A DNA stretch of 64,000 nt from Oncomelania hupensis (lineage: Eukaryota; Mollusca; Gastropoda; Littorinimorpha; Pomatiopsidae), in contig CM072515.1 in the NCBI GenBank assembly GCA_036898135.1, positions 71,275,753-71,339,752 on the forward strand, in the 5' to 3' direction. The notes under the pieces are model-generated. The model was not told the DNA's origin. It saw only the letters and a list, made by a program, of their open reading frames with translations, and did no database searches. Numbering within the stretch: the stretch's first letter is position 1; every line of letters starts with the position of its first letter. Shown here piece by piece: positions 9,180-61,180 of the stretch. A program made the translations under genes and the position numbers.

Positions 9180-10065
9180 ACATACACACACACACACACA
9201 TGTCATTTATTAAGTAATGAGACAGCCTTTGGAATAAAACTGTTTTTCATTCTGAGAGTTCTGACCCTTGGTGTTTGGTAGCGCCTTCCAGAAGGCAGGA
9301 GCTGGAAGTGGTGCGCAAGCACATGAGTGCTATCCAGCACAAAGCAAATAGCTTTCCGCACAACACGTCTTTCATACAACACCTGCAGACTCTCTTGTTT
9401 CACTCCCACAACCCTCCCACAGACGTTCACTACTCGATCCAGAATACTTTTGTTTTTTACACACAAACTTCCATACCAGCAGATAAAAGAAAAGGTAAGA
9501 ACGGACTCAATAAAAGAAGAGTAAAAGGTCTGAAGGATGCGGCGACTGACTTGGAGATTTCGAAGTTTTTGAAGGCAGTAAATTCTAGACTGACATTTTT
9601 TGTGTATGGCCTGGGTGTTTGCAGTGAAGTTCAGTTTCTCGTCAATGATGGTTCCCAGGTATTTGTATTGGGTGACTCTCTCGACTGTAACACCATCAAT
9701 GACAAGGTCTGGAATGAGAGTGTTGTTTTTACGAAAGTCAATGACCAGTTCCTTAGTTTTCTTGACATTTAAGTCCAGATAGTTTTGTTTGCACCAGGAG
9801 CTGAACCTATCAACTGCAGAGAAATACACAGCATTTGAATTGGACAGGTCCACAAGGGCAGAGTCATCCGAGTACTTTATGACCGGTGAGGCATCAGTTC
9901 CTCTGCAGTCGTTTGTGTAGAGCGTGAAAAGTACCGGAGAAAGAACCGTACCCTGAGGAGCTCCTGTGGACGTTTGTTTGAGAGATGAGACAGCAGAGTG
10001 AAAGCGGACAACCTGAGATCTGGACACGAGGAAGTGAACGATCCACAGGACGAGTGTAAGGGAGA
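8925..10065 (-). mobile_element. Rex1/Babar-like LINE, 5' truncated
   Basis: The 3' half of a non-LTR reverse transcriptase. In order, the protein shows TGAPQGTVLSPVLFTLYTND (motif B), IKYSDDSALV (catalytic Asp pair, YSDD), LDLNVKKTKELVIDFRK, the YKYLGTIID thumb-region motif, and a C-terminal RTLRMKNSFIPKAVSLLNK end. The frame is open from about 10065 to the stop near 9203, so the copy is fairly young, but the motif A side and the endonuclease are missing. The 3' UTR includes an AC microsatellite (9146-9200), an AATAAAG signal and a (TTATC)n tail at about 8925-8945. The family signature, GAPQGTVLxPxLF followed by LYTxD, matches the copy at 13.9-15.4 kb. It cannot be autonomous. Confidence 0.8.
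9146..9200 (+). repeat. (AC)n microsatellite inside LINE 3' UTR
   Basis: An AC dinucleotide run in two blocks separated by a few bases. Confidence 0.9.
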
Positions 10066-10774
10066 AGTAATTAATAATATACAACTTCTCCGGTACAGCC
10101 ACTGGTCTGCAATAATACGGATGTGAGAATCTACAGTGGGTCCTCATGGTTTCTAAACCAGTCGCGTGGGTCAGCCACGTGGTCAAGCAAAACTGTACGA
10201 ACATTCACAATTATAAAACATGGCAAGACTTCACAAACATAATCCAACAATGATATCAATAATCGCGGTGAAACAAAAGATCGATCATTTACTTTTTTGA
10301 CAATGTCAGGCTATGTCTATACTGCGATGAATGAATTTCACCCATCACCTGCGTAGTCTTCTGAGAGAGCTTTCAGCGTGTGCGTCCTTCTCGGGTGAGG
10401 CTTAGACAAAGACTGAGGTACCTTAACGTAGTGGCCAGCTAAAGCCTGTGATATCCCATAATTCTTAACGCCTTCGCGGGGGCTGATGGATATAGGTCAG
10501 CTGGATTGATCCATGGCATACCTTAGCGAAAATTATCCCTACACATACTTAGAACAATCCTAACTTCTGTCGTTGGCTATTAATTGAATTTAATTTACAA
10601 AGGCCGAAGAAGAATAAACTTCTAGAGGTGTGAAGCCTTACTGCAGGGTCTAAACTAGCCTCTTGTGACAGCATTATTCAACGCCCTTCTCACCCCCCCT
10701 TTTTTTTCTCCAAATGAAATGAAACACCAACTGTCACTAGCTGCGTACTAGATCTAATACCTGTTTCTTTCATA
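10066..10774. other. No gene recognised
   Basis: Sequence 5' of the LINE junction. The open frame continues to 10204 but loses similarity to reverse transcriptase above about 10065. Nothing else is recognisable up to the RTE-like remnant. Confidence 0.4.
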
Positions 10775-13856: not shown

Positions 13857-15462
13857 AGTAAGACCTACCGACTTGTTTGTTATGTGCTTGAATGGCAAGT
13901 GGTATGAATGAGTTCCTGTACCTATTTGATGTTCCCGCTGGGGCCCTAAAACGTCCACTCCTGTCTATCCGTCAAGAGTCAAATTCCAAGAAAAGTGGAT
14001 GGTTGCTGTCAGCCAAAATTGCAGTCAGCTTTTTTGTCACTTGTCTGCTATGTATCGTCGCTATGTCATCCTGTTCCCTCCCTACCACCCCACTAGCCCT
14101 TTTTATCTGTTTGTCCAATCTTCGTTTTTCTGTTTGTGATACGTTTCCTCCCCAACATGAGATTCCAAAAGAAATTATGCTTCCTATTACAGCTGTATAA
14201 AACATTTGTAAAATTTCCTGTTTTTCATTAAAAGATCTGTTTTCTTAAACAAAACATCCTACTTTGCAGCCGCTTGTAAATGTACTTTGTGTTATCTTTC
14301 CAATTGAATCTATCATCGATAACCACACCTAAATAATTATATGCATGCAATCTCTCTACTTCTTCTCCGTTGATAAAGATAGGATTAAAATCAAACTTGT
14401 TTCCCTTCCTAAAATCAATTATCATTTCTTTTGTTTTACTTACAATAAGATCTAGAAAATTTGAATCACAACAGTTGACAAAACTATCTATTTCATCTTT
14501 GTACATGTTGTCCATGTTGTTGGTAATAAGACCAGAGAGTGCTGTGTCGTCTGCAAATTTTATCAGGGGACAGGATTCGTGCTTTTGTCTATGGTCTGCG
14601 GTGTACAAAGAAAACAAAAAAGGTGCTAGAACAGTTCCTTGAGGGGCTCCTGTATTAGTCAATACAATATTAGAATTGTATACAATAGAATTGGATTTGT
14701 TTTGAACTCTGACAAACTGAGGTCTATTTGTAAGATAGTCAAAAATCCATAAAATAGTTCTAATATCAACATTCATGCCTGCTAGTTTTTGAACAAGTGA
14801 ATGGCATTGCATAGTATTAAAAGCACTACTAAAATCAAAGAACATAAGCCTGACACAAGAATTTGCATTTTCTAAATGTGAGTACATTTTGTTGAGGACA
14901 AAACGAACAGCGTCTTCAAAATTTCTCTTACTTCTACATGTATAGGCAAACTGCAGTGGGTCAGTAAAATCTGATACTAAAACATATAACTTATTAAGAA
15001 CAAATTTTTCAAAAACTTTCATCGTGACAGAGGTTAAAGCAACAGGGCGAAGATCATTAAATACTTTGACTGGATTCTTTTTAGGAACAGGTACTATGCA
15101 TGACATCTTCCAAAGAGTAGGTACAACAGACTGAGAAAAAGACATGTTAAACAGAACAGTAAAAATACCAGCAAGTTGGTTAGCACCTGACTTTAGTAAC
15201 TTAGGTGTAACATTGTCAAGACCAGCAGCCTTTCGAGTGTTTTAACTTAGTAAATGCTAAGCTTACATCCTCCTCACTAACTAACTCACTAACTAGTAGC
15301 TTTCGTTAAAGGTAGTAGGAGGTTGTTTTTTTTTTTTTAAATACACGTCATTGAAACTCATCCCGATTTCCTTGGTAAGACTTGCCTGTAGCTGGTCGTT
15401 AATAGTAGAAGTAGTATGAAAAATAAAACATGGTGACGACATTGAACATTTAAAAGGGTCTG
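13857..15462 (-). mobile_element. Rex1/Babar-like LINE, 5' truncated pseudogene
   Basis: Reverse transcriptase in order: KAAGLDNVTPKLLKSGA (about 15225), VPKKNP near 15085, FDLRPVAL-type motif 1, MFFDFSSAFN (motif A Asp, about 14835), TGAPQGTVLAPFLFSLYTAD (motif B, about 14650), IKFADDTALS (motif C, about 14555), LDLIVSKTKEMIIDFRKGN and YNYLGVVIDD. The frame shifts at about 14210-14228, continues through FYTAVIGSIISFGISCWGG, hits a TGA near 13972, and ends PLAIQAHNKQVGRSY at about 13857. Another frameshift lies near 15240. The catalytic Asp residues are intact but the copy is dead. It abuts the 3' side of the peptide-precursor gene and shares its strand. Confidence 0.8.
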
Positions 15463-15465
15463 AAA

Positions 15466-15601
15466 GTGGGCGCAGCTTCAGCAGCAGCTTCGCGGTTTTT
15501 GCGATCCGCGGATTCTTCCTCCTTCCGTTTCAACTTTCGCGTGTTTTGCGACCACCGCCACCGCCACTACCACTGCCACTATCATAACCTCCGCCCAAAG
15601 T
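15466..15601 (-). pseudogene. Degenerate extra repeat of the peptide precursor
   Basis: Directly beyond the stop at 15602, and in the same frame, the sequence reads TLGGGYDSGSGSGGGGGRKT then RES and a TGA. This is the Gly-rich peptide plus basic site of another unit, with RKTR in place of RKKR. Still further, DRKNREAAAEAAPTF echoes the start of a following unit. At the corresponding position other units have GAA (Glu) after the KR site; here it is TAA. So the reading frame may once have been longer by one or two units, or this stretch is spliced differently (see exon 2). Confidence 0.6.
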
Positions 15602-16209
15602 TTACCTCTTTTCCCTTTCTGCCAGGCTTTCGTCAATCAACCCTTGGGCAAAGGTCACCGTTTCCATTACAGCTTCGCGTTTTTTGCGACCGTCGCCATT
15701 ACCATAACCTTCACCTCCGTCCCCTGTTTCTCTCTTTTCCCTTTTTGCCAGATTTTCGTCAATCAACCCTTGAGCAAAGGTAACAGTTTCCATTTCAGCT
15801 TCGCGTTTTTTGCGACCTTGACCAACAGAATCTTTATATCCTTCGCCCGTTGTTTCTCTCTTTTCCCTTTTTGCCAGATTTTCGTCAATCAACCCTTGAG
15901 CAAAGGTAACAGTTTCCATTTCAGCTTCGCGTTTTTTGCGACCTTGACCAACAGAATCTTTATATCCTTCGCCCGTTGTTTCTCTCTTTTCCCTTTTTGC
16001 CAGACTTTCGTCAATCAACCCTTGAGCAAAGGTAAGAGTTTCCATTTCAGCTTCGCGTTTTTTGCTATCGCCGCCACCGCCGTCACCATGACCATAACCT
16101 CCGCCTCTGCCTATAGTGTCCCTCTTTTCCCTTTGTGCCACACTTTCTTCTCTCAATCCTACAGGCGCAGCATAAGCCACCAGTGCTTCTCGCTTCTGGC
16201 GGTCAAACT
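15602..16209 (-). CDS. Secreted multi-repeat prohormone-like precursor, exon 2
   Basis: This exon carries residues 31-232 of a predicted 232-residue secretory precursor. It begins after a pyrimidine tract and ACAG (acceptor AG at 16210-16211). Its first two bases complete a Glu codon split with exon 1. It encodes five alternating units. The long peptides begin Glu-Ala directly after Lys-Arg (type EAEMETVTFAQGLIDENLA, residues 83-106, 125-148, 167-190 and 209-232; a divergent one at 38-60) and end in REKR. The Gly-rich peptides are ETTGEGYKDSVGQG twice (107-120 and 149-162), ETGDGGEGYGNGDG (191-204) and a divergent one at 61-82, ended by RKKR or SKKR. Gly before RKKR is the standard amidation signal. 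The DNA unit is 126 bp. There are no cysteines. The stop is TAA at 15602-15604, but AG|GTAAAC at 15606/15605 could instead act as a donor. The family is not recognised: neuropeptide or pheromone precursor by architecture, not by homology. Confidence 0.75.
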
Positions 16210-16856
16210 CTGTAAAACAAATTGAAAAGGACGTCACATTTCATAGTATAGATAATATATATACCTTAAGTACAATCTCTAATCAACCGTTAGTTAACAT
16301 TACCAACCAATACTCATCAGCCGGATAAAATCCAAACGTTTGCAGGTGTGTTCAGGTTCGAGAAATATCTCATTAGTTTCGTAATTAGCGCCTCATAGGG
16401 TTTTACAATGACTGTTTTTTTAAGATAATGTTCAGATGAAGAAGAGTTTAGCTCGAAAATTCTCCTTGTGTGGTTTTGTCTTGTTGTGGTCCAAATAATC
16501 GTTCTTTTGTTTTTCGTACGTATTTGTTTCTCAATGAAGTTCCGATATACAATTTTGAAAAATTTTGTTGTTGTTGTTTTTGTTGTTGTATTTTAAGTTG
16601 GTTTTAAGTTGAATGTTTTCAATTAGTTTGTATACTTCATATTTTTGTGAATATACTTTCAATTAAATCCTTGAATTGAACACATAGTATTTTCCAGTCA
16701 CTTGACCTATAAACTCACTAAAGTTTGTTGTCACCACTGCGGCATGTTTAGCAACAAGTCAGTTTATTTTAAAAACAATTCTGAAGAAAAGGAGAAGCGA
16801 AAAAGGTTGTAAGAGCAAATGTTGTTCATCAGATTAATTTAAAGGTGTACATAGAA

Positions 16857-16886
16857 AAAGAAGAAGAAGAAGAAGGAGAAGGAGAA

Positions 16887-16921
<35 letters not shown>

Positions 16922-17000
16922 AGAAGATGAAGAAGTTGTTGTTGTTATTTCAATTTTTATTCATCAGATTAACATAAGTTATACTGATACTGAAGAAGAA

Positions 17001-17047
<47 letters not shown>

Positions 17048-17091
17048 AGAAGAAGAAGAAGAAGAAGAAGAAGAAGAAGAAGAAGAAGAAA
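16857..17091 (+). repeat. Two (GAA)n microsatellites
   Basis: GAA-rich tracts at about 16857-16937 and 16994-17091, separated by non-repeat DNA that contains GTTGTTGTT. They lie in the intron. Poly-Glu open frames here are artefacts. Confidence 0.95.
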
Positions 17092-17312
17092 AGTTAGTAG
17101 TAGCAGTAGTATACAAACGCAATATAAAAGTATAACCGAGGTATCGTTTAGGAACAACAGTAAAACGGTGAACTCGAGTACAAAGTAGGTGTAAGTTTAC
17201 ACATGTGATTACATACATAAAATAGCGCTCTATGCAAACTTAAAGTGACAACAATCATGGGCATTGTATTGTCACATTTATTAAATAAATAAATACGTAC
17301 ATAAATAAATAT

Positions 17313-17592
17313 GTGTCGGATAGCGCAGTGGTTGGAGCTCTCGGTACTGTGTCGCAAGTTAAGCACCGGCCAGTGTGGTTAGCACTTGGATGGGTGACCG
17401 CAAACCGTGAAGCGACAAATAACAACGCCCCCAGTTGACTCAACTGTGACTGAGTACCTACTCTCTTAAGGGTGGGGAAGGTAAAGCAGCGAGGGAGAGA
17501 GATGGGCATCACCCTCATTACGCTGGCCCAAGATAAGTGTGATCTCCAACATCACGCTCCCCTACGGCCACAAGGCTATGGGACCACCTTTT
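17313..17592 (+). mobile_element. Chimeric tRNA/5S-like SINE, family B
   Basis: The head GTGTCGGATAGCGCAGTGG, the 5S-like section CAAGTTAAGCACCG and GCACTTGGATGGGTGACC, and the body up to CACAAGGCTATGGGACC are the same as at 13200-13495 and 36356-36649. Its 3' end meets the (TATCC)n tail of the minus-strand RTE element, so the two elements lie tail to tail. Confidence 0.85.
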
Positions 17593-19472
17593 ACATCCTA
17601 TCCTATCCTATCCTGTCCCGTAACCCGAAGGTCGAAGGGGCACCACAGATGATCGTTTAACCAGCATACTTAATCTTTCTCTGTCCTCAGCAGCCCTGAT
17701 GGCTTCGCTCAGTGTCAAACCAGTCCATTCTGGAATGTTGTCCTCCCACCTCTTTTTCGGTCTCCCTCTTCTTCTACCTCCTTGCACTGTGCCTTGCAGA
17801 ATAGTCTTTGCAAGACCTGATGATCTGGTGACGTGGCCATACCATCGGAGTTTCCGTTTCTTCACCACTGTTAGCAGGTCATCGTGTTGTCCAATGGCTT
17901 GTGTGATGGTCTGTCGGACTTCGTCGTTGGTGATGTGTTGGGTATAGGAAATGCCCAGAAGTCTTCTGTAGCACCTCATCTCCATGCTTTGTATTCTTCG
18001 TTGGAGATCTGCTGTGAGGGTCCATGCTTCGCAAGCATATAGGAAGATGGAGATGACAAGGGAGCGCAGCAGTCTTACTTTGGAATGTAGACTGATGGTC
18101 CAAATGGGCTTCAACCTTGTCAGGGCAGCAGTTGTTTGTGCGATCCTGGAGAGGACTTCCTGTCGGGACCCATTGTCTGATACAATGGCTCCAAAATATT
18201 TGAAGCTATGCACTGTGTTGAGGGATTGGCCTTGGACTTTGATGTCCGTGTTGATGCCATTGGTGTTGTTTGTCATCATTTTGGTCTTCTCTGCACTTAT
18301 TTCCATTCCATAAGCTCTGGAGGTGGTGTCAAGCCTCTGTACCAGCTGTTTAAATTCCTGTTCCTCTCCAGTTAATCCATTTATGTCATCCGCAATACGA
18401 AGATTGGAGATTTCCCTACCCCCTATGCTGACTGTGCCTTCATGATCTACAAGAGCATCTGACATGATGCGCTCTAAGAAGATGTTGAAGAGTGTTGGAG
18501 AGAGTAGGCATCCTTGACGCACACCGATTGTTGTTTTGAACCAGTTTCCGATGGCGCTGTTGTGGAGGACTGCACTGGTAGCCTTGTCATACAGGCTTTT
18601 GATGAGTTCAATAATTTTAGGGCTGATGTTGTACACTTTCATTGTTGCCCATAGAGCTGCATGCCAGACTCGGTCAAACGCCTTCTTGAAGTCTATGAAC
18701 ACATGATATAGATGTTGTTGGTGCTGTAGGTATTTCTCACAGATTATTCTGAGGTTGAAAATCTGTTCAGTGGTACTTCGCCCTGCCCTGAATCCTGCTT
18801 GTTCTTCAGCTATGATTTGTTCAGCTAGGGGTTTCAACCTGTTGAGTATTATTTTCAGGAGGACCTTGCTTGGATGGCTGATGAGGCTGATGGTGCGGTA
18901 ATTTTCACACTCCTGAAGGTTACCTTTTTTTGGAAGAGTGATGACTAGCGACTGGGTCCATGGTATAGGCCACTCCCCACTCTGCCGGATCTTGTTACAG
19001 ATAATGGTGAGGGCATCAATCATCGCTTCTCCTCCTGCTTGTAGCAGTTCCGCGGATATGTTGTCCATTCCCGCTGACTTCCCTTTCTTTAGCGATTGCA
19101 CTGCTGCCTCAACTTCTTCCCGGAGAATTGGGCGGATTTCTTCTTCTTCTCTGTTCTCGGGACATGCTAGAACTGATGGGTCTCCATTTGGTGTATGGTT
19201 GTAAAGGTCAGAGCAGTACTCTGTCCATCTGTCCAAGACTTCTTGTTCTTCTGTAAGGCATATGCCAGACTTGCTTTGGATCGTGGAGACTTTGGGCTGT
19301 TTGACACTTGTCAGCCGCTTTACAGTCTGGTAGGCCTTCTTGCTGTTGTTCTTGTTCAGACTGTTCTCTATTTCCTGGCATCGATCTTCTATCCAGTTCT
19401 CCTTTGCTGTGCGCATGCCTTTTCGGATGTCATTGTTGATTTTTCGGTAGACATCGGTAGAATTTTTTTTCA
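17585..19472 (-). mobile_element. RTE/BovB-like LINE, 5' truncated, long open frame
   Basis: An uninterrupted 621-codon frame (17608-19473) covers the whole reverse transcriptase and C-terminal region. Visible parts in order: KGKSAGMDNISAELL, TLPKKGNLQECENYRTISLI, QAGFRAGRSTTEQI, YHVFIDFKKAFDRVWH (motif A), GVRQGCLLSPTLFNIFLERI (motif B), LRIADDINGL (motif C, Asp pair intact, first residue Ile rather than the usual Phe or Tyr), the FKYFGAIVSD motif, LLGISYTQHIT, GRPKKRWEDNI and an RSSVVPLRPSGYGTG end. The N-terminal endonuclease is missing: similarity stops near 19470 at a T-run. The 3' end is a (GGATA)n tail, as in RTE/BovB elements that end in short tandem repeats. Insertion appears recent, but the copy is not autonomous. 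Confidence 0.88.
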
Positions 19473-19556
19473 ATTATGCAATAAATAAATGAACACGTAA
19501 ATAAATAAATAGATTAATAAGTAAATGAATTCATATTTTAAAAATCATTCATTTAC

Positions 19557-19647
19557 CTGCACCGTTGGGCTTCAATCTCATTCCCATACAGATGTTAGGG
19601 ATACAGAAAGTAAGGCCTAAAATGGCCAGGATGAACGGTCCTTGCAT
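19557..19647 (-). CDS. Secreted multi-repeat prohormone-like precursor, exon 1 (signal peptide)
   Basis: The ATG is at 19647-19645. The 30 complete codons begin MQGPFILAILGLTFCIPN and continue ICMG, then MRLKPNGA. This is a typical secretory signal peptide: a short N-region, a hydrophobic core ILAILGLTF, and likely cleavage after about residue 22. The exon ends with one base of a split codon at CAG|GTAAAT, a good donor. Exon 2 begins with two bases, which makes Glu and leads directly into FDRQKR, a first dibasic site. The phase match over 3.3 kb, the same strand, and the signal-then-repeat architecture are the grounds for joining the exons. The start is chosen because it is the only ATG that precedes the hydrophobic core. 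Confidence 0.7.
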
Positions 19648-19708: not shown

Positions 19709-19714
19709 TTTATA
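19709..19714 (-). promoter_or_regulatory. Possible TATA box of the prohormone-like gene
   Basis: The minus strand reads AATATAAACAAAG about 62 bases upstream of the ATG, which would leave a short 5' UTR. The region is AT-rich, so the motif could be there by chance. Confidence 0.3.
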
Positions 19715-20478: not shown

Positions 20479-20586
20479 CATTAACCCTTTCATAACCCTT
20501 TCATAACCCTTTCATAACTCTTTCATTAACTCTTTCATAACCCTTTCATAACCCTTTCATAACCTCTTTCATAACTCTTTCATACC
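20479..20586 (+). repeat. 11 bp minisatellite AACCCTTTCAT
   Basis: About nine tandem copies of AACCCTTTCAT, with AACTCTTTCAT and TAACTCTTTCAT variants. Confidence 0.9.
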
Positions 20587-24146: not shown

Positions 24147-27100
24147 TTACAAAAACCCCCCTATAGGGCTAAAAATCAAGGCCTCTGCAATCTGCAGCCA
24201 ACAATCACATGTTATAATTTGAGCATTGCAAATATTTGCAGGTAAGAGTTGTTGTATTGCACTACAATCATGTAATATGTGATCTATTGTTATTTTTGCT
24301 TGACATTGGCATACTACCTCTTTGCAGTATTTTGTTTTCCAAGAATTAAGAATTAGTCTATTGGCCAAAGTAACAATAGGACGAGAATAATGGATTGCTT
24401 GATTTGTTATAATGTTCAAGTTTGATTCTGATTTAAATTGTTGATTGATAATTGTATACATTTCTTTTTGTGATAATGGTATTTGTATGGAAAAAACATG
24501 TTCATTTTTTGCTCCTTGTTTGGCTTGTCGATCTGCCCAATCATTATACAATAAACCGCTATGTGAAGGAACCCAACAAAATGTGACACCAGTTCCTGAC
24601 CTTATTAATATGTTAACAAGGTGTTGTATTTCATATATTATTGAATTAGCATCATTATTGTCAGATTGCAATGCATACAAAACGGGCTTAGAGTCTACAC
24701 ATATAAAAAAATCAATGAATGCTCTTTGTAAACTTATTATTTTATGTAATGACATTAAAATCGCGATAAGTTCAGCTGAAAATATTGAATGTTTTTTCCC
24801 TAAGCTATAACCTTCAATTACTTTGAGTGATGGTATAACATATCCTGAGCCAGATTCCCCTGAATCTAAAACGGAACCATCCGTATATATTTCTAAATAA
24901 TTATGATAATTTTCTTCTATGTGTATACGAGCAGCTGATGCAATTAAGTTAATATTATCATCTTTTTTCAGTGTAGTGTATTCAGTATCAAATTTAGCTT
25001 TACAGAATTCCCATGGAGGCAACGGTGGGCTTGCTAATTTTTTGAAAACATTTTGTGGAGATATATCTGCTGTCTCAAAAATATCAGAAGTGTAAGTAGC
25101 AATAGTTTGTAAGTATTTGACATTTCGAGATCGTTGAGAAAAATCTCTGTGCGATTGAATGTTTAATTCAATTGTTGTAAAATTTTGTACACTAGAAGCT
25201 CTGACGATGTATTTTGCACATGACATTTTACGCCAATCATCTAAGGACATTAATCCTACAGCCTTGTATGTAGCTATTGTTTTCGTATGAATAGGTACTC
25301 CAAGTGCAGTTTTAATAGCCTTGCTATCAATGCTTTGTAACTGTTTTAGTAGCGTTTTTGATGCCGAAAAATATACCTCCTGGCCATAAGTAAGTTTAGA
25401 TCTTACAAGTGCAATAGCAATAGACAATAACGTTTTAATATCTTGACCCCATTTTTGTGTTGATATTATTTTAAGAAGGGTCAAACTTTTGGATGCCTTT
25501 TGTATTAAATACTGTATGTGTTTATTCCAGTTCAGTTTGACATTTAAAAACACACCTAAAAATTTCACATCTGTCACATACTGCAATTGTTTTTTACCAA
25601 TAAAAAAGTTTGGTAATTGTCTTGGTCCCTTCCCACTGTTGAATAAGATCATATTCGTTTTTTCTTCACTTAATTCTAGACCATTTATCTGCATATATAA
25701 GATAATTTTATCCAATTCTGCTTGATAAATTTTTTGAATATGCTTTATTTCAAACATTGACGTCATTTTCTTTAAGGTTACATTAACCCACATAGCAATG
25801 TCGTCTGCATATTGTACTAAACTTGTATTTTTTCCAACTTGTTTTGGTAAATCGTAAAGCAAAATGTTAAAGAGTAGGGGCTATATAATTGACCCTTGTG
25901 GAATACCCATATTAGTGGTATATTTTGATGAATATGAATTGCCAATTCTAGTGATGAGTTTTCTTCCATTTAAAAATTGTTTAATGTATAAATACATATT
26001 ACCAGACAATCCAATTGTTTTCAATTTATAAAGCAGTCGACAGTGCCAAACGCGGTCATAGGCTTTGCTAACATCAAAAAACGTAGCAAGAACGTTTTTT
26101 CTTTTAGAAAACTGTAGTTTAATTTGTGTTGTCAATTTTACTAAATGATCAATCGTAGATCTACCTTTTTTAAATCCAGCTTGATTGCTTGGTATTATAT
26201 TGTTTTTGTTGCAATAATGTGAAAGCCTATTTAATATAACCTTTTCCAAAATTTTACCAGCATGTGATGTGAGTGCAATCGGACGATAGCTATTTGGATC
26301 TTGCCTGTTTTTACCTGCCTTTAATAGTGGAATGATGATAGAAGTTTTCCATTGTTCAGGTAAGGTATTTTCTTGCCAACATTTGTTAATTAATTTATGA
26401 AAAAATTCAATCCATTTTGTAGGAAGATGTTTTAATAACGTATAAGATAGTCCATCTGAACCAACTGCTGATTTTTTATTCCCCAACTGATTTAACGCTG
26501 ACAAGATTTCATTTAATGTTACTGGAGAATTGATGAAATTTGAATTATCTATAATTGGATCATTATATTCTTCAGATATTTCATCTTCAAGTCTTCTACT
26601 GCGTTCTTGATCAGTCAAGCTTGCTATATTGCTTGCAGTGGAGAATTGTTTGCCGAAGACTTCAGCCTTTTCTTGAGGTAATGGAAAAGATTTGTCTACA
26701 ATTTTAATCGGACACTGTGGACGTTGAATACCATTTTTCATTTCTTTAACCTTTTTCCAAATACATTTAGTATCTTGTGAATTATAAATTTTATTTGTAC
26801 AAAAATCTTCCCAATATTTCTTTTTTGCAAGAGCTATTATTTTATTACAACTAAGTTTTGTTGTTTTCATCTTGTCATAGGCATCTACTGTTCTTGTTCG
26901 TATCCATTCTTTATAAGACTCCTTTTTATGCCTTACAGCCACCTCACACTCAGGGGTCCACCATATGTTACCCTGGTGCTTTTTGTTTTTTCCATCTATT
27001 TTGCGAGGTATGGATTTGCTAGCAGCACTGTGTATGTGTTTTGAAAATGTATTGTATATTTCATCAAGATTTTCATCATCCTCAAAATTTAAATTAATGT

Positions 27101-27879
27101 CCAAAAGAATAGATTGATATGTAGTCCAATCTGCAAATTCATATTTATATTTTGGAATGTTATCTTTTGTCTGATCTCTTTCTATATGTTCTCCTAGTAT
27201 TGTTATAACAGGTAAATGATCACTATTTAAACTGTCGTCCTCCACATCCCACAAGGTGTTAGTGGCTAAAGATGTAGATATAAGTGATAAAACTATAGCT
27301 GATGGACGCTGTGTGCTGACGTCTGGTACTCGAGTTATCCTACCATCATTAAGTAAAATCAAATCTGAAGAATGTATATTATCAATAAGTCTATTACAAA
27401 CATTTGCATTGTGGATGCAACCTTTGTCCCAAATTGAAGAGTGTGCGTTAAAGTCTCCAACTATTATCCATTTAGTAGATTTATCTAGATTTTGAATCCA
27501 ATCAGTATTGTCATTTGTTATACCAGTAGGAAAATAAACTGACATGATATTGACCTCAGTTCTATCATTTATCTTCACTTTTGCTGATACAGAATGAACA
27601 CCCTCTATTGTCTTGGGCACAGGGGACCCACATGGCAAATAACTTACGTCTTTCCTAATGTATAAGGCTACTTTAATTTTTTTCATTTTTATGTACAAAT
27701 TGTACCAAAGGAGGAAAGAAATATCCGTCTAATTTAGGCAATTTATATTTGTTAACATTTAATGATTGTAGTGCAATAATGTGATGTTGATGTTGATTTA
27801 AATATTGCTGTAAGTATTGTGCGTTTGTAGATAAAGATCTACAATTCCATTGAAATATATTAAACTGTTCATCAGTCAT
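24147..27879 (-). pseudogene. LINE ORF2 (EN-RT-RNase H), one frameshift and one nonsense codon
   Basis: It starts MTDEQFNIFQWNCRSL (endonuclease N-terminus), shifts frame near 27680-27700, and continues through VNIMSVYFPTG, WIIVGDFNAHSSIWD (catalytic Asp/Asn), RPSAIVLSLIS and NSDHLPVI. The family normally has Asp in the SAID position of the third motif; this copy has Val, so the endonuclease is probably inactive. Reverse transcriptase follows: SYRPIALTSHAGKI, ATFFDVSKAYDRVWH (motif A), MGIPQGSII, a TAG stop at about 25880, PLLFNILLYDLP, and VQYADDIAMW (motif C, YADD). RNase H follows: LEIYTDGSVLD, FSAELIAILMSL, ICVDSKPVLYAL and CWVPSHSGLLYNDWAD. It ends with CQCQAKITIDHILHDC and a stop. Apart from those three lesions it is well preserved. 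Confidence 0.82.
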
Positions 27880-27896
27880 TATGTAATAGATTAATT

Positions 27897-28043
27897 ACTT
27901 CATTTGATCAAAATAGAATTGATAGTATTTGCCAGAAGGATTGATCCCTTTTTGTTGGGGTGAAAGCGATCGCTGTACAATGATACTTTAGCTGCACCAG
28001 ATTTGGTAAGAAACAAAGGATCGTTGTCAACATATTGTACAGT
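27897..28043 (-). pseudogene. C-terminal end of LINE ORF1 with SGNH-esterase-like motif
   Basis: Open frame ending DRFHPNKKGSILLANTINSI followed by LIK and a TGA 18 bases upstream of the ORF2 start. The D-x-x-H-P-N-x-x-G pattern is the catalytic Asp/His block of SGNH/GDSL hydrolases, a domain known in ORF1 of several CR1- and I-group LINEs. Everything N-terminal is replaced by a microsatellite. Confidence 0.55.
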
Positions 28044-28045
28044 AT

Positions 28046-28046
28046 T

Positions 28047-28133
<87 letters not shown>

Positions 28134-28278
28134 CTTCTTCTTCTTCTTCTTCTTCTTCTTCTTCTTCTTCTTCTTCTTCTTCTTCTTCTTCTTCTTCTTC
28201 TTCTTCTTCTTTTTCTTCTTCTTTTTCTTCTTCTTTCTTCTTCTTCTTCTTCTTCTTCTTCTTCTTCTTCTTCTTCTT

Positions 28279-28311
<33 letters not shown>
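28046..28311 (+). repeat. Compound (TAG)n(TTG)n(TTC)n microsatellite
   Basis: About 265 bases of trinucleotide repeat that changes in steps: TAG (to about 28098), TTG (to about 28132), then TTC with a few TTTTTC interruptions. Each step is one base change per unit. The long open frames on both strands are artefacts. Confidence 0.95.
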
Positions 28312-28374
28312 GGTCCTGATTTGGCTCGGAAGAGTCCGCTGGACCTAAAGCAATAGCCATGTAATGTAATGTCT
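28312..28374 (+). mobile_element. LINE 3' hairpin tail at the end of a microsatellite
   Basis: GGTCCTGATTTGGCTCGG ... CCGCTGGACCTAAAGC then CCATGTAATGTAATG, nearly identical to 4168-4229, and again joined to a TTC tract on its 5' side. Confidence 0.7.
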
Positions 28375-29085
28375 TCTTGTTCTTCTTCGCAGGACATTTT
28401 TGCGTTTCACAGTTTTGTGGCCTTTCAGGGAGACAAAGGGTTAATAAAGTACTGTATGTTCTTTATATTCTACACCAGTGATCTATAAAATAATGTGTAT
28501 TTCAGTTTCTGATTGACCCACTTTTTTATACATTCATGGTGGTACGAAAATTGTCTCGAGTTAAATAAATTCGCAGCGAAATATTTGAGAGAAAAACAAT
28601 TCACGCGAAAATGGATCAGTGTTGGTGAAAACATTTCACGACATATTTTTTTTAAAATAATAAAATCAATCATGCATGGCTAAACGATTTCAAATAAACT
28701 ATAATACGAAACAAATAATTACATCAACTAAAAGAATGCTACGAAAACAAAACAAAACATATTGGCCGATTTCAAATAAAGTCTAAAGGTACTTTCATGA
28801 ATGTACCTACTCTTTGTCCGGTCAGTTATCAAAGTTTAAATGTAGGGGAGGAGGAGGAATAGAGGGGGTAAGGGGTGGGGGGGGGGGGGGTGGTGGTTGG
28901 GAGAGGCGAGAAACATAGCGAAAGTTTTAAACCGTGGGTTTCTGCAACAATTATTCATTATGAATTGTTTACGTAAATAATATATTAGTTATCAAATTCG
29001 GCTAAATAATGCATTTTATAGGTAAACAAATCATTATAAATAATCATATTTAGGAAACGTTTCTAAATAATTCATTAAAAAATTC
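28375..29085. other. AT-rich, no gene; G run
   Basis: No coding feature. There is a G-rich segment with a G run near 28878-28890. From about 28940, AT-rich DNA recurs as TAAATAATxCATTxTATAGGT (at 29005 and again at 29352), interrupted by the repeat arm that follows. Confidence 0.45.
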
Positions 29086-29974: not shown

Positions 29975-30150
29975 TCCTGTACCATTATTGAAGGGAGGGA
30001 GGGAGGAAACCGGAGTGCCCGGAGAAAACCCTCGGTGACCTCAATAGTCTCGTACCTAAATCACATACGTTCGCCCCTTGCGGGAATCGAACCCGCGACC
30101 TTCGGCATAGGAAACCGGCGACTTATCCACTGCGCCACGAGGCCACCCCG
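29975..30150 (-). mobile_element. tRNA-Arg(CCT)-like SINE, family C, contiguous copy
   Basis: The reverse complement folds almost as a tRNA: GCCTCGT / AAGGGGC acceptor arms with one mismatch, D arm GGCGCAGTGGATAAGTCGC, loop TTCCTAT (anticodon CCT) and T arm GCGGGTTCGATTCCCGC. The body that follows contains CACCGAGGGTTTTCTCCGG and CTCCGGTTTCCTCCCTCC. The body shared with 4875-4970 shows that this is a SINE, not a tRNA gene. Confidence 0.75.
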
Positions 30151-35530: not shown

Positions 35531-35873
35531 ATAATCCATCAACGATCAACATTTGAAATGGACGCAGACGGAGTGATCTGACAGAATTTCAGAAAACAAG
35601 ATGGCAAGCCACACACAAAAAAAGCATTATCAACAGTGTTCTTCGTGTTTGTTTGTTGTTGTTGTTGTTTTGGTTGTTTATTTGTGTGTAGGTGTGTATA
35701 CGTGTGAGTGTGTGTGTAGGTGAATGTGTGTGCAGGTGGGTGTGTGTGTGGGCATGTAGAAACGACGTTACAGTGACACATTCATGAAACTCCACATGGT
35801 TTCTTTTGACTTTTTTGGAAGGCTGCCCTATTTTGACGTTAAAATAGGGTTCCGGTAGAGTTACAGCTGTTTT

Positions 35874-35925
35874 AGGGTTAGGTTAAGGGTTTGGGTTAGG
35901 GGTTAGGGTTAGGGATAGGTTCAAA
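35874..35925 (+). repeat. Degenerate interstitial TTAGGG repeats
   Basis: Imperfect TTAGGG/TTGGGTTAGGGG units, about seven, followed by AGGGATAGG. A second, longer block on the opposite strand is at 61083-61180. Confidence 0.8.
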
Positions 35926-44939: not shown

Positions 44940-45162
44940 AAAGGATGTTTATGATGCTCGTTTGTCAGTTGCGTACATTTAGGTTGTTCATGATGGCTCA
45001 GTTGTCAGTTGCGTACATTTAGGTTGTTCATGATTGCTCATTTGTCAGTTGCGTACATTTAGGTTGTTCATGATTGCTCATTTGTCCGTTGCTACATTTA
45101 GGTTGTTCATGATTGCTCATTTGTCCGTTGCGTACATTTAGGGTGTTCATGATTGCTCATTG
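44940..45162 (+). repeat. 40 bp minisatellite, about five units
   Basis: Units of about 40 bases containing GTTGCGTACATTTAGGTTG and TTCATGATTGCTCATTTGTC. The units are highly similar, with one- or two-base changes and a one-base deletion in unit 4. Confidence 0.92.
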
Positions 45163-48571: not shown

Positions 48572-48753
48572 GGGGCCGGGTAGCTTAGTTGGTAGAGCGG
48601 CTTACTAGTAACCGAAAGGTACCTGGTTCGAATCCAGGATTGGCCAACGTGTGACCATATTATTTTCCCCTTACCATCAACTGGTTCGCTGGTGTCAGAA
48701 TGACGTGACCAGTGGTCGCCTATACGCTCCGGTGTCGTGTGACTATAATCTAC
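48572..48753 (+). mobile_element. tRNA-Thr-like SINE, family T
   Basis: GGGGCCGGGTAGCTTAGTTG, ACTAGTAACCGAAAGG, GGTTCGAATCCAGG, and the body to GTGTGACTATAATCTAC. Confidence 0.85.
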
Positions 48754-50954: not shown

Positions 50955-53900
50955 GGCAGAGGATGATGATGATGATGTGATCTTGTAAGGCGCCAAAAAA
51001 TCCATGTACGTAGTGTTCATGCTCTATGCGCACTAAAACGGTGATTCAGCCATATTAAAACAAGTAAGTTTTTAGTCCTTTCTTGAAGCTTGGCAGGGAA
51101 GGAGCTTGCTTCAAGCTCAGGGGAAGGGAGTTCCACAGAGTGGGTGCAGCATTTTTGAAGGAGCGCATTCCAAGAGTCTTTTTGGTTGTGTTGCTTGTGC
51201 GCACACTGGGGGTTTCAAGTCTACACTGAGTCCCTGACCTGAGTTCGCGTCTGGGTTGGTAAGGGGAGACCAGTTCTGTGAGGTAGGTGGGAGCAGTGCT
51301 CGTGAAGCACTGATAGGCAAGTGCCAGGATTTTGTAGTCTAGTCTTTTTTCAACGGGCAGCCAATGAAGAGAACGAAGTCCAGGTGAAATGTGCTCATTC
51401 CTTTTTTGTTTTAGAACAATCCTTGCTGCAGTATTTTGAACAAGTTGTAGTCTCTGCAGTTGTGTTTTGGGTAGTCCCCAGAGGCAGCTGTTACAATAAT
51501 CCAATCTAGAGAGGATGAGAGAAGTTGCAACTGATCTGGCTGTTTTAAGATTTAACAATGGGCGAAGTCTGCCTAGCATTCTGATGTAGAAGTAGCATGT
51601 CCTCACGATGAAACTAACATGCGTTGACAAGGTTAGTCGGCTGTCAATGTACAAGCCTAGGTTTCGCACTACGTCAGATGGTGTGATCTTGGCCTCTCCA
51701 ATTTGTACAGAGTCGATGCTGGTTTTTGCTAGGCTGGTCTTAGACCCACACAGCAAAATCTCTGTCTTCAAGTCATTCAGTTTGAGCCTATTTGATGACA
51801 TCCAGTTCTTGACTTCCTCACAGCAATGCTCCACCGATGTCACTGCCTCCTGTGCTGACTGTGCTGTAGGTCTGAATGCTGTGTAGAGTTCTGTGTCGTC
51901 GGCGAACATTTTTCGATTGAGGCCATGCCTTTCGACAACAGAGCCTAGCTGACAAGTGTAGATGCAGAACAGCAGAGGGCCCAGTACTGAGCCCTGAGGG
52001 ACTCCACATGATAGTTTCGTCTCTGGTGAGGATGCATGGTTGATTGTGACATACTGGGTTCTGTTTCGCAAGTATGATACAAACCAGTCCAATGCAGGCC
52101 CAGTCACTCCAACTTCACAAGACATGCGATCAAGGAGAACAGTATGATCAAGAGTGTCAAATGCCGCACTGAGATCTAACAAGACGCAAAGTGTCAAGTC
52201 ACCGGCATCGGCATTGCACAAAAGGTCATTCATGAGGCGTAACAGCGATGTTTCACAACTGTGATGGGCACGATATGCTGACTGAAATCTATCTGAGAGA
52301 TTGTGTTGGTCTAAGTGGCTGATCATTTGCCTGGCGATGACTCGTTCAAGTAGTTTTGAGATATAGGGCAAGTTTGAAACTGGCCTAAAATTTTTACATT
52401 CATTTGGGTTTAGATTGTGCTTTTTCAGCAGGGGTTTAATGAGAGCCGTTTTGAAGGGAGTAGGAACAACCGACTGACTGATGCTTCTATTTACTATTTT
52501 CACCAAAATGGGCAACAGGATGTCAATATTGTCCAGCACAATCTTAGTCGGTACAGGATCAACAGGTGAAGAAGTGGGCTTGCATCGAGCGATGATCGTC
52601 TTCAGTTGTTCGGCTGTGACAGGGGCAAAGTGAGATAACATTTCACCTATGAAAGGCCGGGTGATGTTCACAATGGGGGGTTGATTGTCATCCCGGAAAC
52701 TTTGCTGGATTTCTTCAATCTTGGCTTGAAAGAAGTGATTGAGAGTCGTGGCTGCAGCTTGACAGTCCATGTCAGGAAGTATCGGACTTGATGCTTCACC
52801 TCCCAGAAGTCTGTTGACCACTGAGAACATCTTGCCCGAATCTGATCCTGCATCTTCTAAGGCTTCCTGCACATGGTGAGCTCTGGCCTTGTTTACCACC
52901 ACAGTGCACTTGTTCCTAGCCTTACAGAAGCACTGCCTGTCTACTTCCAGCCCCGTGGTGCGCCACCTCCTTTCCGCCCTGCGCCTGGCCTTCTTTGCGT
53001 CATGCACAGCGGGCGTCATCCAGCCGGTGTCGCCTCTCTCCGTCACTTGCTTCTTCCTCTCAGGTGCATGCTTGTTTAGTAGCGACAAGAGCGTTTCGTT
53101 GTACAGAGACACCAGCTCCTCAACATCGTCAGGGGGAGAGAGAAGAAGGTTCGAATCCTGAAGGTCCTTTCTAAATGCTTCCTTTCTCATGCCTTTGATG
53201 TTTCGAACATGAATAATTTTCTTGGGAGGGTTGGGACGTGACATAATAGTTTCAGCGATCACAAGGAAATGATCCGAGAATTGCTGGTCTTCAACATCGA
53301 CAGTCTTGACCAAGGCAACGGTGGATCTTGACATGACCCAGTCAAGGATGTGACCTCTCCTATGTGTCACCTTGGTTACCAGTTGAGAGATGTCGAGCGA
53401 ATTTAGCAGCTGGCAAATGCGTTTGGTGTCAGAATCTTTGGGGGAGTCATAATGCAGATTCACGTCTCCAAGCACAATGAAGTACTTGTGAGAGGCGGCG
53501 ATGGCTGACAACACTGGGGTGAATTCATCAAAGAATACGGAGGTAGGTACTCTATGCACTTTGGTATAAGGTCGCCTATAGACGCACATTACATGCACAG
53601 ACAGCTTTTCATGAGAAAGTATGAAACACAATGATTCAAAAGAAATATGTTTTTCTGCTGTTAGGAGTCTCACTGTCAGAGAGCTGTTGTGGATGAGGGC
53701 AATACCTCCCCCACAGGTGTTCGTGATTCTAGGCTGATGAACACATGTGAAACCCGTTGGTGTCATTCGAGTAAGAACTAGTTCGTCTCCAGATTCCTTT
53801 AGCCACACCTCTGTTATCACAAGTATATCTAATGATTTCTCTAAAATCATATCATGTATCATGTCAGCTTTCTTTGATGTAGATTGGGCATTGAACAAAC

Positions 53901-54530
53901 CCAACAGCAATTTATTTCTCTTCCTGATGGAGGGAAGGGAAGGAGAGGGGGGATTGGAAGATGATGATCCACCAAAGTCTAGTGGTGCACTTTCTTGGCC
54001 GTCCAGCGATACATGTAGGTATGCCAGCCGGAAGGGCAGTAGTGGTGGTGAAGGGGGGCAGGTGGAAGCGTCAAAGGTATCGACAGGGAGGGTCGCTGTA
54101 GGTGAAGTTGTAGGTGGGAAGTTTTCAATAGTATCACTATCACACACTATCTCATTGAGACTTTTCAATTCAGTATCTGAATTAGAAGATGGAAAACTGT
54201 ATGGAATATTCTCTCTATGACTAGTGTCAATGTTTTGTAGTGGCACAACAAGTGCCTGTGGTTTCTGTAATTGCTTCACTTTTCTACCAGATCTCACACC
54301 CCTAACACTCTTTCTCTTTACTAGGCCTAATTTTCTACATGTTGATACCACACAATTACTTAGTACACCAGATGTTCTGGATAACTGTTTGAGAAATGAT
54401 GCTGAGTATTGAAAAGTATTCATGCTACTCTGGGTGGCAATCAGAATGTAATTAAAACCAGGCTCAGTAGCTCTGTTCAACCATGCAATGTCAAAAACAT
54501 TGAGATGTACTCATGTATCCAACACAAAGA
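50955..54530 (-). mobile_element. L2/CR1-group LINE with intact ORF2
   Basis: Minus-strand element with an uninterrupted endonuclease-reverse transcriptase frame, a short 3' UTR and a 3' end GGCGCCTTACAAGATCACATC followed by (ATC)n near 50960-50985, the usual terminus for this group. The frame is open to a TGA near 54530. No ORF1 is evident upstream, so the element may be 5' truncated outside the coding region or lack ORF1. Confidence 0.85.
51055..54423 (-). CDS. LINE endonuclease/reverse transcriptase (ORF2), intact
   Basis: A polyprotein that nicks target DNA and reverse-transcribes its own RNA into it. The start is taken at the first ATG (54423, MNTFQYS; A at -3), giving about 1,122 residues; the frame is open for about 35 more codons upstream. 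Residues up to about 170 are Ser/Pro-rich with a basic patch (RKSVRGVRSGRKVK). The APE-type endonuclease follows: LGLFNAQS, VITEVWLKES (Glu), CVYRRPY, VLGDVNLHYD (Asp/Asn), HILDWVMSRS and FSDHFLVI (Asp-His), all key residues present. Reverse transcriptase: NFRPVSNLPYISKLLERVI, QSAYRAHHSCETSLL, CVLLDLSAAFDTLDH (motif A), CGVPQGSVLGPLLFCIYT (motif B), KMFADDTELY (motif C), VRNLGLYID. The C-terminal segment ends RSFKNAAPTLWNSLPLSL and KKGLKTYLF. No nonsense codon or frameshift is present, so it may be functional. Confidence 0.85.
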   Translation of the reverse strand: MNTFQYSASFLKQLSRTSGVLSNCVVSTCRKLGLVKRKSVRGVRSGRKVKQLQKPQALVVPLQNIDTSHRENIPYSFPSSNSDTELKSLNEIVCDSDTIENFPPTTSPTATLPVDTFDASTCPPSPPLLPFRLAYLHVSLDGQESAPLDFGGSSSSNPPSPSLPSIRKRNKLLLGLFNAQSTSKKADMIHDMILEKSLDILVITEVWLKESGDELVLTRMTPTGFTCVHQPRITNTCGGGIALIHNSSLTVRLLTAEKHISFESLCFILSHEKLSVHVMCVYRRPYTKVHRVPTSVFFDEFTPVLSAIAASHKYFIVLGDVNLHYDSPKDSDTKRICQLLNSLDISQLVTKVTHRRGHILDWVMSRSTVALVKTVDVEDQQFSDHFLVIAETIMSRPNPPKKIIHVRNIKGMRKEAFRKDLQDSNLLLSPPDDVEELVSLYNETLLSLLNKHAPERKKQVTERGDTGWMTPAVHDAKKARRRAERRWRTTGLEVDRQCFCKARNKCTVVVNKARAHHVQEALEDAGSDSGKMFSVVNRLLGGEASSPILPDMDCQAAATTLNHFFQAKIEEIQQSFRDDNQPPIVNITRPFIGEMLSHFAPVTAEQLKTIIARCKPTSSPVDPVPTKIVLDNIDILLPILVKIVNRSISQSVVPTPFKTALIKPLLKKHNLNPNECKNFRPVSNLPYISKLLERVIARQMISHLDQHNLSDRFQSAYRAHHSCETSLLRLMNDLLCNADAGDLTLCVLLDLSAAFDTLDHTVLLDRMSCEVGVTGPALDWFVSYLRNRTQYVTINHASSPETKLSCGVPQGSVLGPLLFCIYTCQLGSVVERHGLNRKMFADDTELYTAFRPTAQSAQEAVTSVEHCCEEVKNWMSSNRLKLNDLKTEILLCGSKTSLAKTSIDSVQIGEAKITPSDVVRNLGLYIDSRLTLSTHVSFIVRTCYFYIRMLGRLRPLLNLKTARSVATSLILSRLDYCNSCLWGLPKTQLQRLQLVQNTAARIVLKQKRNEHISPGLRSLHWLPVEKRLDYKILALAYQCFTSTAPTYLTELVSPYQPRRELRSGTQCRLETPSVRTSNTTKKTLGMRSFKNAAPTLWNSLPLSLKQAPSLPSFKKGLKTYLF

Positions 54531-61082: not shown

Positions 61083-61180
61083 TCACGAAGTTCTTAGGCG
61101 TCATAACCCTAACCCTAACCCAAACCCTAACCCTAACCCTAAACTTTTAACTCTAACCCAAACCCTAACCCTAACCCTTA
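61083..61180 (-). repeat. Degenerate interstitial telomere-like repeats
   Basis: Two blocks of CCCTAA units (TTAGGG on the minus strand) with CCCAAA variants, split by AACTTTTAACTC. This is the ancestral animal telomere motif, but the block is internal and short. Confidence 0.85.

Follow-up and report, generated by a model that had tools for sequence, protein, structure and literature searches.

A candidate orphan gene for a secreted precursor of two alternating peptide sets in Oncomelania hupensis

A 64,000-nucleotide stretch of Oncomelania hupensis DNA (contig CM072515.1, positions 71,275,753 to 71,339,752; hereafter the window) was found to contain a candidate two-exon gene on the minus strand, running from position 19647 to position 15602. 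Judged from the sequence, it likely encodes a genuine multi-peptide precursor that is secreted and has no known relative, but belongs to a known kind of gene. In its fuller form, for which our confidence is about even, we propose an animal gene whose secreted precursor would be cut by furin-like proteases into short acidic peptides of two alternating types, likely to serve as extracellular signals.

Candidate gene structure and peptide units

The coding part of the short exon 1 starts with a minus-strand ATG at 19647 and ends with base 19557 at the donor GGTGCAG/GTAAAT (8/9 donor match). The acceptor reads TTTTACAG/AGTTT, with 16209 as the first base of exon 2. Joining 19557 to 16209 brings together matching phases across a codon split 1+2, and yields a predicted spliced product of 232 amino acids (aa) that ends at the stop codon 15604-15602. 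The acceptor at 16209 can be considered fair, as 155 of the 3483 YAG sites in the window equal or exceed its pyrimidine count. The exon 2 part (202 codons) is intact, as are the leader and both splice sites. Its frame contains no ATG ahead of the third unit, and an upstream exon is therefore required. By hydropathy only, the N-terminus has the character of a signal peptide, with a best 9-residue hydropathy of 2.66 at residues 5-14. Both cysteines of the precursor lie in this leader and none occur elsewhere; most small linear peptides lack cysteine. The exons have a G+C content of 47%, compared to 27-37% around them. The predicted features are as follows (LINE, long interspersed nuclear element; ORF, open reading frame).

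19709..19714, minus strand: TATAAA, a possible core promoter 67 bases upstream of the ATG (putative function)
19557..19647, minus strand: predicted exon 1, coding part, with the hydrophobic leader MQGPFILAILGLTFCIPNICMG... and the donor CAG/GTAAAT
16210..19556, minus strand: predicted intron, phase 1, containing the LINE reverse-transcriptase ORF 17608-19473
15602..16209, minus strand: predicted exon 2, coding part through the stop codon

In frame, the precursor comprises five long units and four Gly-rich units, i.e. several related copies lying between basic sites, in the order L1 S1 L2 S2 L3 S3 L4 S4 L5. The long units (L1-L5) all begin with Glu-Ala (EA), are 19-20 residues in length and are followed by REKR. 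The Gly-rich units (S1-S4) contain 14-19 residues and open with DT or ET; S1 is bounded downstream by SKKR, and S2-S4 by RKKR. Ten basic sites are thus present: one RQKR, five REKR (the last one terminal), three RKKR and one SKKR.

16121..16189, minus strand: long unit L1, EALVAYAAPVGLREESVAQ-REKR
16055..16120, minus strand: Gly-rich unit S1, DTIGRGGGYGHGDGGGGD-SKKR
15983..16054, minus strand: long unit L2, EAEMETLTFAQGLIDESLAK-REKR
15929..15982, minus strand: Gly-rich unit S2, ETTGEGYKDSVGQG-RKKR
15857..15928, minus strand: long unit L3, EAEMETVTFAQGLIDENLAK-REKR
15803..15856, minus strand: Gly-rich unit S3, identical to S2
15731..15802, minus strand: long unit L4, identical to L3
15677..15730, minus strand: Gly-rich unit S4, ETGDGGEGYGNGDG-RKKR
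15605..15676, minus strand: long unit L5, EAVMETVTFAQGLIDESLAE-REKR, then the stop

S2 plus L3 is identical to S3 plus L4 over 126 bases, with the identity extending a further 22 and 6 bases. Hence, the duplication looks recent, and copy number may differ among individuals.

An earlier note on this DNA had described an exon with a signal peptide and good donor, a second exon with a pyrimidine tract and acceptor, and a codon joining 1+2 between them. All three were borne out, with a strongly hydrophobic leader, the 8/9 donor, the fair acceptor and an uninterrupted 232-aa frame. The note further had two peptides alternating five times between REKR or RKKR furin-type sites. This applies to the five long units, while only four Gly-rich units are in frame and the fifth is a remnant past the stop; similarly, eight of the ten sites are of the types named, the others being one RQKR and one SKKR.

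Comparison with chance expectation

Both strands of the window were scanned for an ATG exon of at least 45 nucleotides with a hydrophobic leader, an 8/9 donor and phase 1. Exon 1 was the sole match, and the same scan applied to 20 Markov controls of 64 kb gave one match in total. With a looser 7/9 donor, three phase-1 candidates were found within 25 kb upstream of the acceptor, the 19647-19557 exon being the only one with a leader. The exon 2 protein contains 9 R-x-[KR]-R sites, whereas 5000 shuffles of it averaged 0.39 and reached 5 at most. When the 84 stop-to-stop ORFs of at least 100 aa are ranked by RxKR count, two overlapping simple-repeat ORFs (27903-28406) score higher, with 27 and 21, and the next-ranked ORF below that of exon 2 has 1. 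Furthermore, at 9/9 internal sites the unit that comes next can be predicted from the type of linker, with EA after RQKR, SKKR and RKKR, and DT or ET after REKR.

Searches for relatives

The protein search covered 5.8 billion proteins, animal ones included, as confirmed by a LINE query. For the full precursor, no protein was found at E 10 or better when the 7997 candidates with the largest number of shared words were scored. Residues 80-147, chosen to keep Gly-rich words from crowding out relatives, likewise gave none among 318 candidates. The search relies on shared 5-residue words, and distant relatives may escape it. A Pfam scan of the precursor revealed no peptide-hormone family, the single PDB match (E 0.25) is taken as chance, and ten peptide strings of the precursor were absent from the papers searched, where wider queries yielded general lists or no result. 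In viral and prokaryote genome contigs, 0/51 and 0/40 pattern matches were relatives, a result of little weight as these collections are not meant for animals.

The whole protein exceeds the Pfam cut-off for the Plectin repeat (PF00681; 22.7 vs 20.5, E 8.9e-5), with a best stretch of 12 residues and no stretch passing alone. A Plectin-repeat protein was rejected, given that the N-terminal piece and each of three units queried singly matched 0 families, so that no single unit matches a full 39-position repeat. The end of the Plectin repeat resembles GLIDE..A of the long unit, and the score most likely results from summing over a short word that recurs. Other Pfam candidates (Phospho_p8 and IDEAL) were both below their cut-offs. 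The best NCBIfam match, CV_2116 (E 1.1e-6), reached 28.6 bits vs a cut-off of 58 with no stretch passing alone, and four weaker NCBIfam matches were also far below cut-off.

Predicted products and processing

Units L2-L5 are almost identical, and L1 retains the end GLxxESxAxREKR. The Gly-rich units are variable in length and sequence, except that S2 and S3 are identical. Precursors of the multi-copy type usually conserve the active peptide, while their spacers vary. As the long peptide is conserved between copies, it is likely to be the main product, with the Gly-rich peptide a variable second product or spacer.

Furin and PC enzymes cut behind RxKR, carboxypeptidases remove C-terminal Arg and Lys, and PAM amidates. 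In the proposed scheme, exon 1 would be spliced to exon 2, the leader removed in the endoplasmic reticulum, and a furin/PC enzyme would cut after each RxKR-type site, with a carboxypeptidase trimming the C-terminal basic residues. S1-S4 would be fully trimmed of basic residues, three of the four then ending in Gly. In S2-S4, complete trimming of RKKR would expose this Gly and leave it open to amidation, the expected amides being ETTGEGYKDSVGQ-amide (twice) and ETGDGGEGYGNGD-amide (once). For the long units, trimming would halt at the Glu of REKR to give acids ending in Arg-Glu, e.g. EAEMETVTFAQGLIDENLAKRE. The computed MH+ of EAEMETVTFAQGLIDENLAKRE is 2494.213, and that of its shorter form ending at ...NLA is 2080.974; the two amides would have values of about 1369.62 and 1226.46, obtained by subtracting 0.984 from those of the free acids (1370.607 and 1227.440). 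Alternatively, a second cut could occur at the KR of LAKR in L2-L4, sparing these peptides the Arg-Glu end; the Lys of this motif is present in L2-L4 and lacking in L1 and L5. Each of the predicted products is acidic, with a net charge of -2 to -5. It is conceivable, if doubtful, that the linker itself sets the chemistry, with RKKR leading to an amide and the Glu of REKR to an Arg-Glu acid, so that two signals would be made in a fixed ratio by an orphan family growing by exact 126-base duplication.

Gly is found ahead of the basic site in 3/4 Gly-rich units and 0/5 long units. Since Gly makes up 23-56% of the Gly-rich peptides even when this position is left out, Gly before RKKR constitutes weak evidence of amidation. 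None of the four distinct long peptides has a hydrophobic moment exceeding that of shuffles (P 0.15 to 0.66), and no claim of an amphipathic helix mechanism is made. A single-sequence fold of exon 2, of low confidence (mean pLDDT 60.6) and too weak to base a fold search on, places helices over long units 2-5 and also over some of the linker and Gly-rich sequence.

With respect to the proposals of the earlier note, a secreted multi-peptide precursor is supported by the leader, the splice match, the regular RxKR sites and a codon-position bias (see below), and the emphasis on Gly-rich products is not. The Gly-rich amides it put forward are not clearly the main products, the conserved copies being the long EA peptides, and its amidation signal is present at three of the four Gly-rich units with the weak evidential value given above. 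A neuropeptide or pheromone use, which the note connected with this layout, is putative. Its failure to match a named peptide family was reproduced by the protein, Pfam, PDB and literature searches, none of which gave a credible relative.

Possible selection and alternative readings

Several observations weigh against the proposed precursor and are considered here together with the evidence for selection and the alternative readings. Nonsynonymous divergence (dN) is below synonymous divergence (dS) in 7/8 unit pairs. Pooling L1-L2, S1-S4 and L3-L5, three of the eight pairs picked for little overlap, gives 10, 7 and 22 differences at the first, second and third codon positions. The third-position share of 22/39 has a P of 0.0025, with two of the three pairs aligned as gapped proteins, which favours a third-position excess. 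Taken singly, these pairs give P values of 0.146, 0.019 and 0.088, respectively. The unpooled long pairs differ at 5, 3, 9 (L1-L5), 2, 1, 5 (L2-L5) and 1, 1, 0 (L2-L3) positions, and the unpooled Gly-rich pairs S1-S2 and S2-S4 at 6, 7, 9 and 4, 2, 6. L2-L3 shows two amino-acid changes and zero silent ones, S2-S4 has no third-position bias when compared ungapped (7, 6, 5), and random placement of the changes in L3-L5 yields as few amino-acid changes with a P of 0.085. Third positions of the sense frame coincide with first positions of the antisense ORF, hence the bias speaks for the sense strand. Overall, the comparison of units suggests moderate support for protein-level selection, strongest for the long unit.

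The region just past the stop also bears on the reading, as 73 bases match S1 plus the start of L2 with a score of 61, compared to at most 27 in shuffles.

15523..15595, minus strand: decayed Gly-rich unit plus the beginning of a long one, interrupted by another stop and no longer in frame
15450..15518, minus strand: stretch in another frame, tail-like for such a precursor, recognised by eye only

No unit alignment extended to the 15450..15518 stretch with a score above shuffles. No AATAAA or ATTAAA was found between 15602 and 14000, weaker poly(A) variants only being present at 15197, 14564, 14440 and 14107, and another reverse-transcriptase ORF starts at 15241. Because decayed units lie past the stop, without AATAAA or ATTAAA nearby and with a reverse-transcriptase ORF at 15241, the 3' end appears to be eroding and C-terminal units have likely been lost from the precursor.

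These remnants, the missing canonical poly(A) signal, the LINE in the intron and the second reverse-transcriptase ORF would all fit a degenerating gene copy for such a precursor, with its exons open and its expression or use lost. We consider this unlikely, given the intact leader, splice sites and 202 exon 2 codons and the silent lean of the unit differences, though the latter possibly predates any loss. It is very improbable that no gene is present, i.e. that a 126-base tandem repeat is open by chance, with a chance leader-like exon upstream. Antisense is also open, for 253 aa (15464-16225), and openness alone therefore proves little; much of the ORF consists of one repeated 126-base unit, so its openness is not independent evidence. 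The RxKR sites sit inside the repeat and are equally non-independent, hence we weight the joint pattern of linker and unit above the site count. As the protein search found no homologue, there is also no between-species conservation to draw on. Against a chance origin, the leader exon is rare in Markov controls, RxKR sites are far above shuffles, and the differences are concentrated at sense-frame third positions.

If the gene is real, its products might still not be receptor ligands. A rather unlikely alternative is that furin cuts either a repeat protein secreted by a gland or epithelium (for mucus, egg capsule, or shell or cuticle matrix) or the precursor of defence peptides, and that the pieces are structural or protective. 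RxKR suits furin acting in the constitutive pathway, and this is not neuron-specific. The predicted acidic pieces are unlike the usual cationic antimicrobial peptides, and there is no cysteine outside the leader for cross-links. Lophotrochozoan multi-copy neuropeptide families include those of the FMRFamide, pedal peptide, buccalin and enterin type. Their prohormones resemble the O. hupensis precursor in the leader, the related peptide copies, the basic sites and the Gly before some sites, whereas the latter gave no sequence match to a known family in the protein and Pfam searches and strictly alternates two unlike units. The usual lophotrochozoan peptides have amidated aromatic or aliphatic ends, in contrast to the acidic products predicted here, which lack such ends; amidated Gln and Asp ends are unusual. 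In the apidaecin and yeast alpha-factor precursors, Glu-Ala directly follows a basic site in repeated units, as here, but these dipeptides form a short spacer removed by dipeptidyl peptidase, while EA here opens a 19-20-residue unit. The ant hymenoptaecin precursor has a similar plan, with a signal sequence, one pro-region intron near the start, and Gly-rich domains that recur with EAEP spacers and basic sites on either side; EA segments follow basic sites as in our candidate (PMC3415428). Its domains contain 97 aa and its EAEP spacer four residues (PMC3415428), compared to Gly-rich units of 14-19 residues and better conserved EA units of 19-20 residues here, and a hymenoptaecin-type defence precursor was rejected on domain length. 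A glycine-rich non-neuropeptide sequence was once mistaken for achatin (PMC8557429), and this is a fair warning for the present precursor.

Homology-based annotation misses lineage-restricted secreted peptides. If expressed, the proposed precursor would add an orphan two-peptide gene, with product masses that peptidomics could use, and a natural test of whether Glu within a furin site fixes the peptide C-terminus.

Surrounding sequence

The intronic LINE reverse-transcriptase ORF (17608-19473, minus strand, 621 aa) lies on the same strand as the gene. Of the 7989 proteins scored against its product, 1217 matched at E 1e-20 or better, and the named relatives among the 120 matches listed span several marine phyla (sea spider, tube worms, brittle star and crab) at 59-74% identity. 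A LINE ORF of 1151 aa at 51055-54510 (minus strand) combines endonuclease and reverse-transcriptase domains in a single open frame. The LINE at 24147-27728 (minus strand) has an endonuclease/reverse-transcriptase part and an RNase H part in one frame, with a single stop codon between them. A reverse-transcriptase ORF at 9203-10204 (minus strand) also matches ALKBH8_N (PF09004; 28.9 vs a cut-off of 21 bits), probably because the model picks up LINE sequence.

Two tRNA-like matches, at 30072-30143 (minus strand; ARAGORN only, as tRNA-Arg) and 48574-48646 (plus strand; Rfam only), are possibly tRNA-derived short interspersed nuclear elements. Simple repeats include a compound microsatellite of (GTA)n, (GTT)n and (TTC)n over ~260 bases (28047-28308) and a 40-base unit in 5.6 tandem copies with 93% matches (44942-45161). 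Short telomere-like arrays (TAACCCTTTCA, TTAGGG, TAACCC) are located within the window at 20482-20584, 35872-35919 and 61104-61178.

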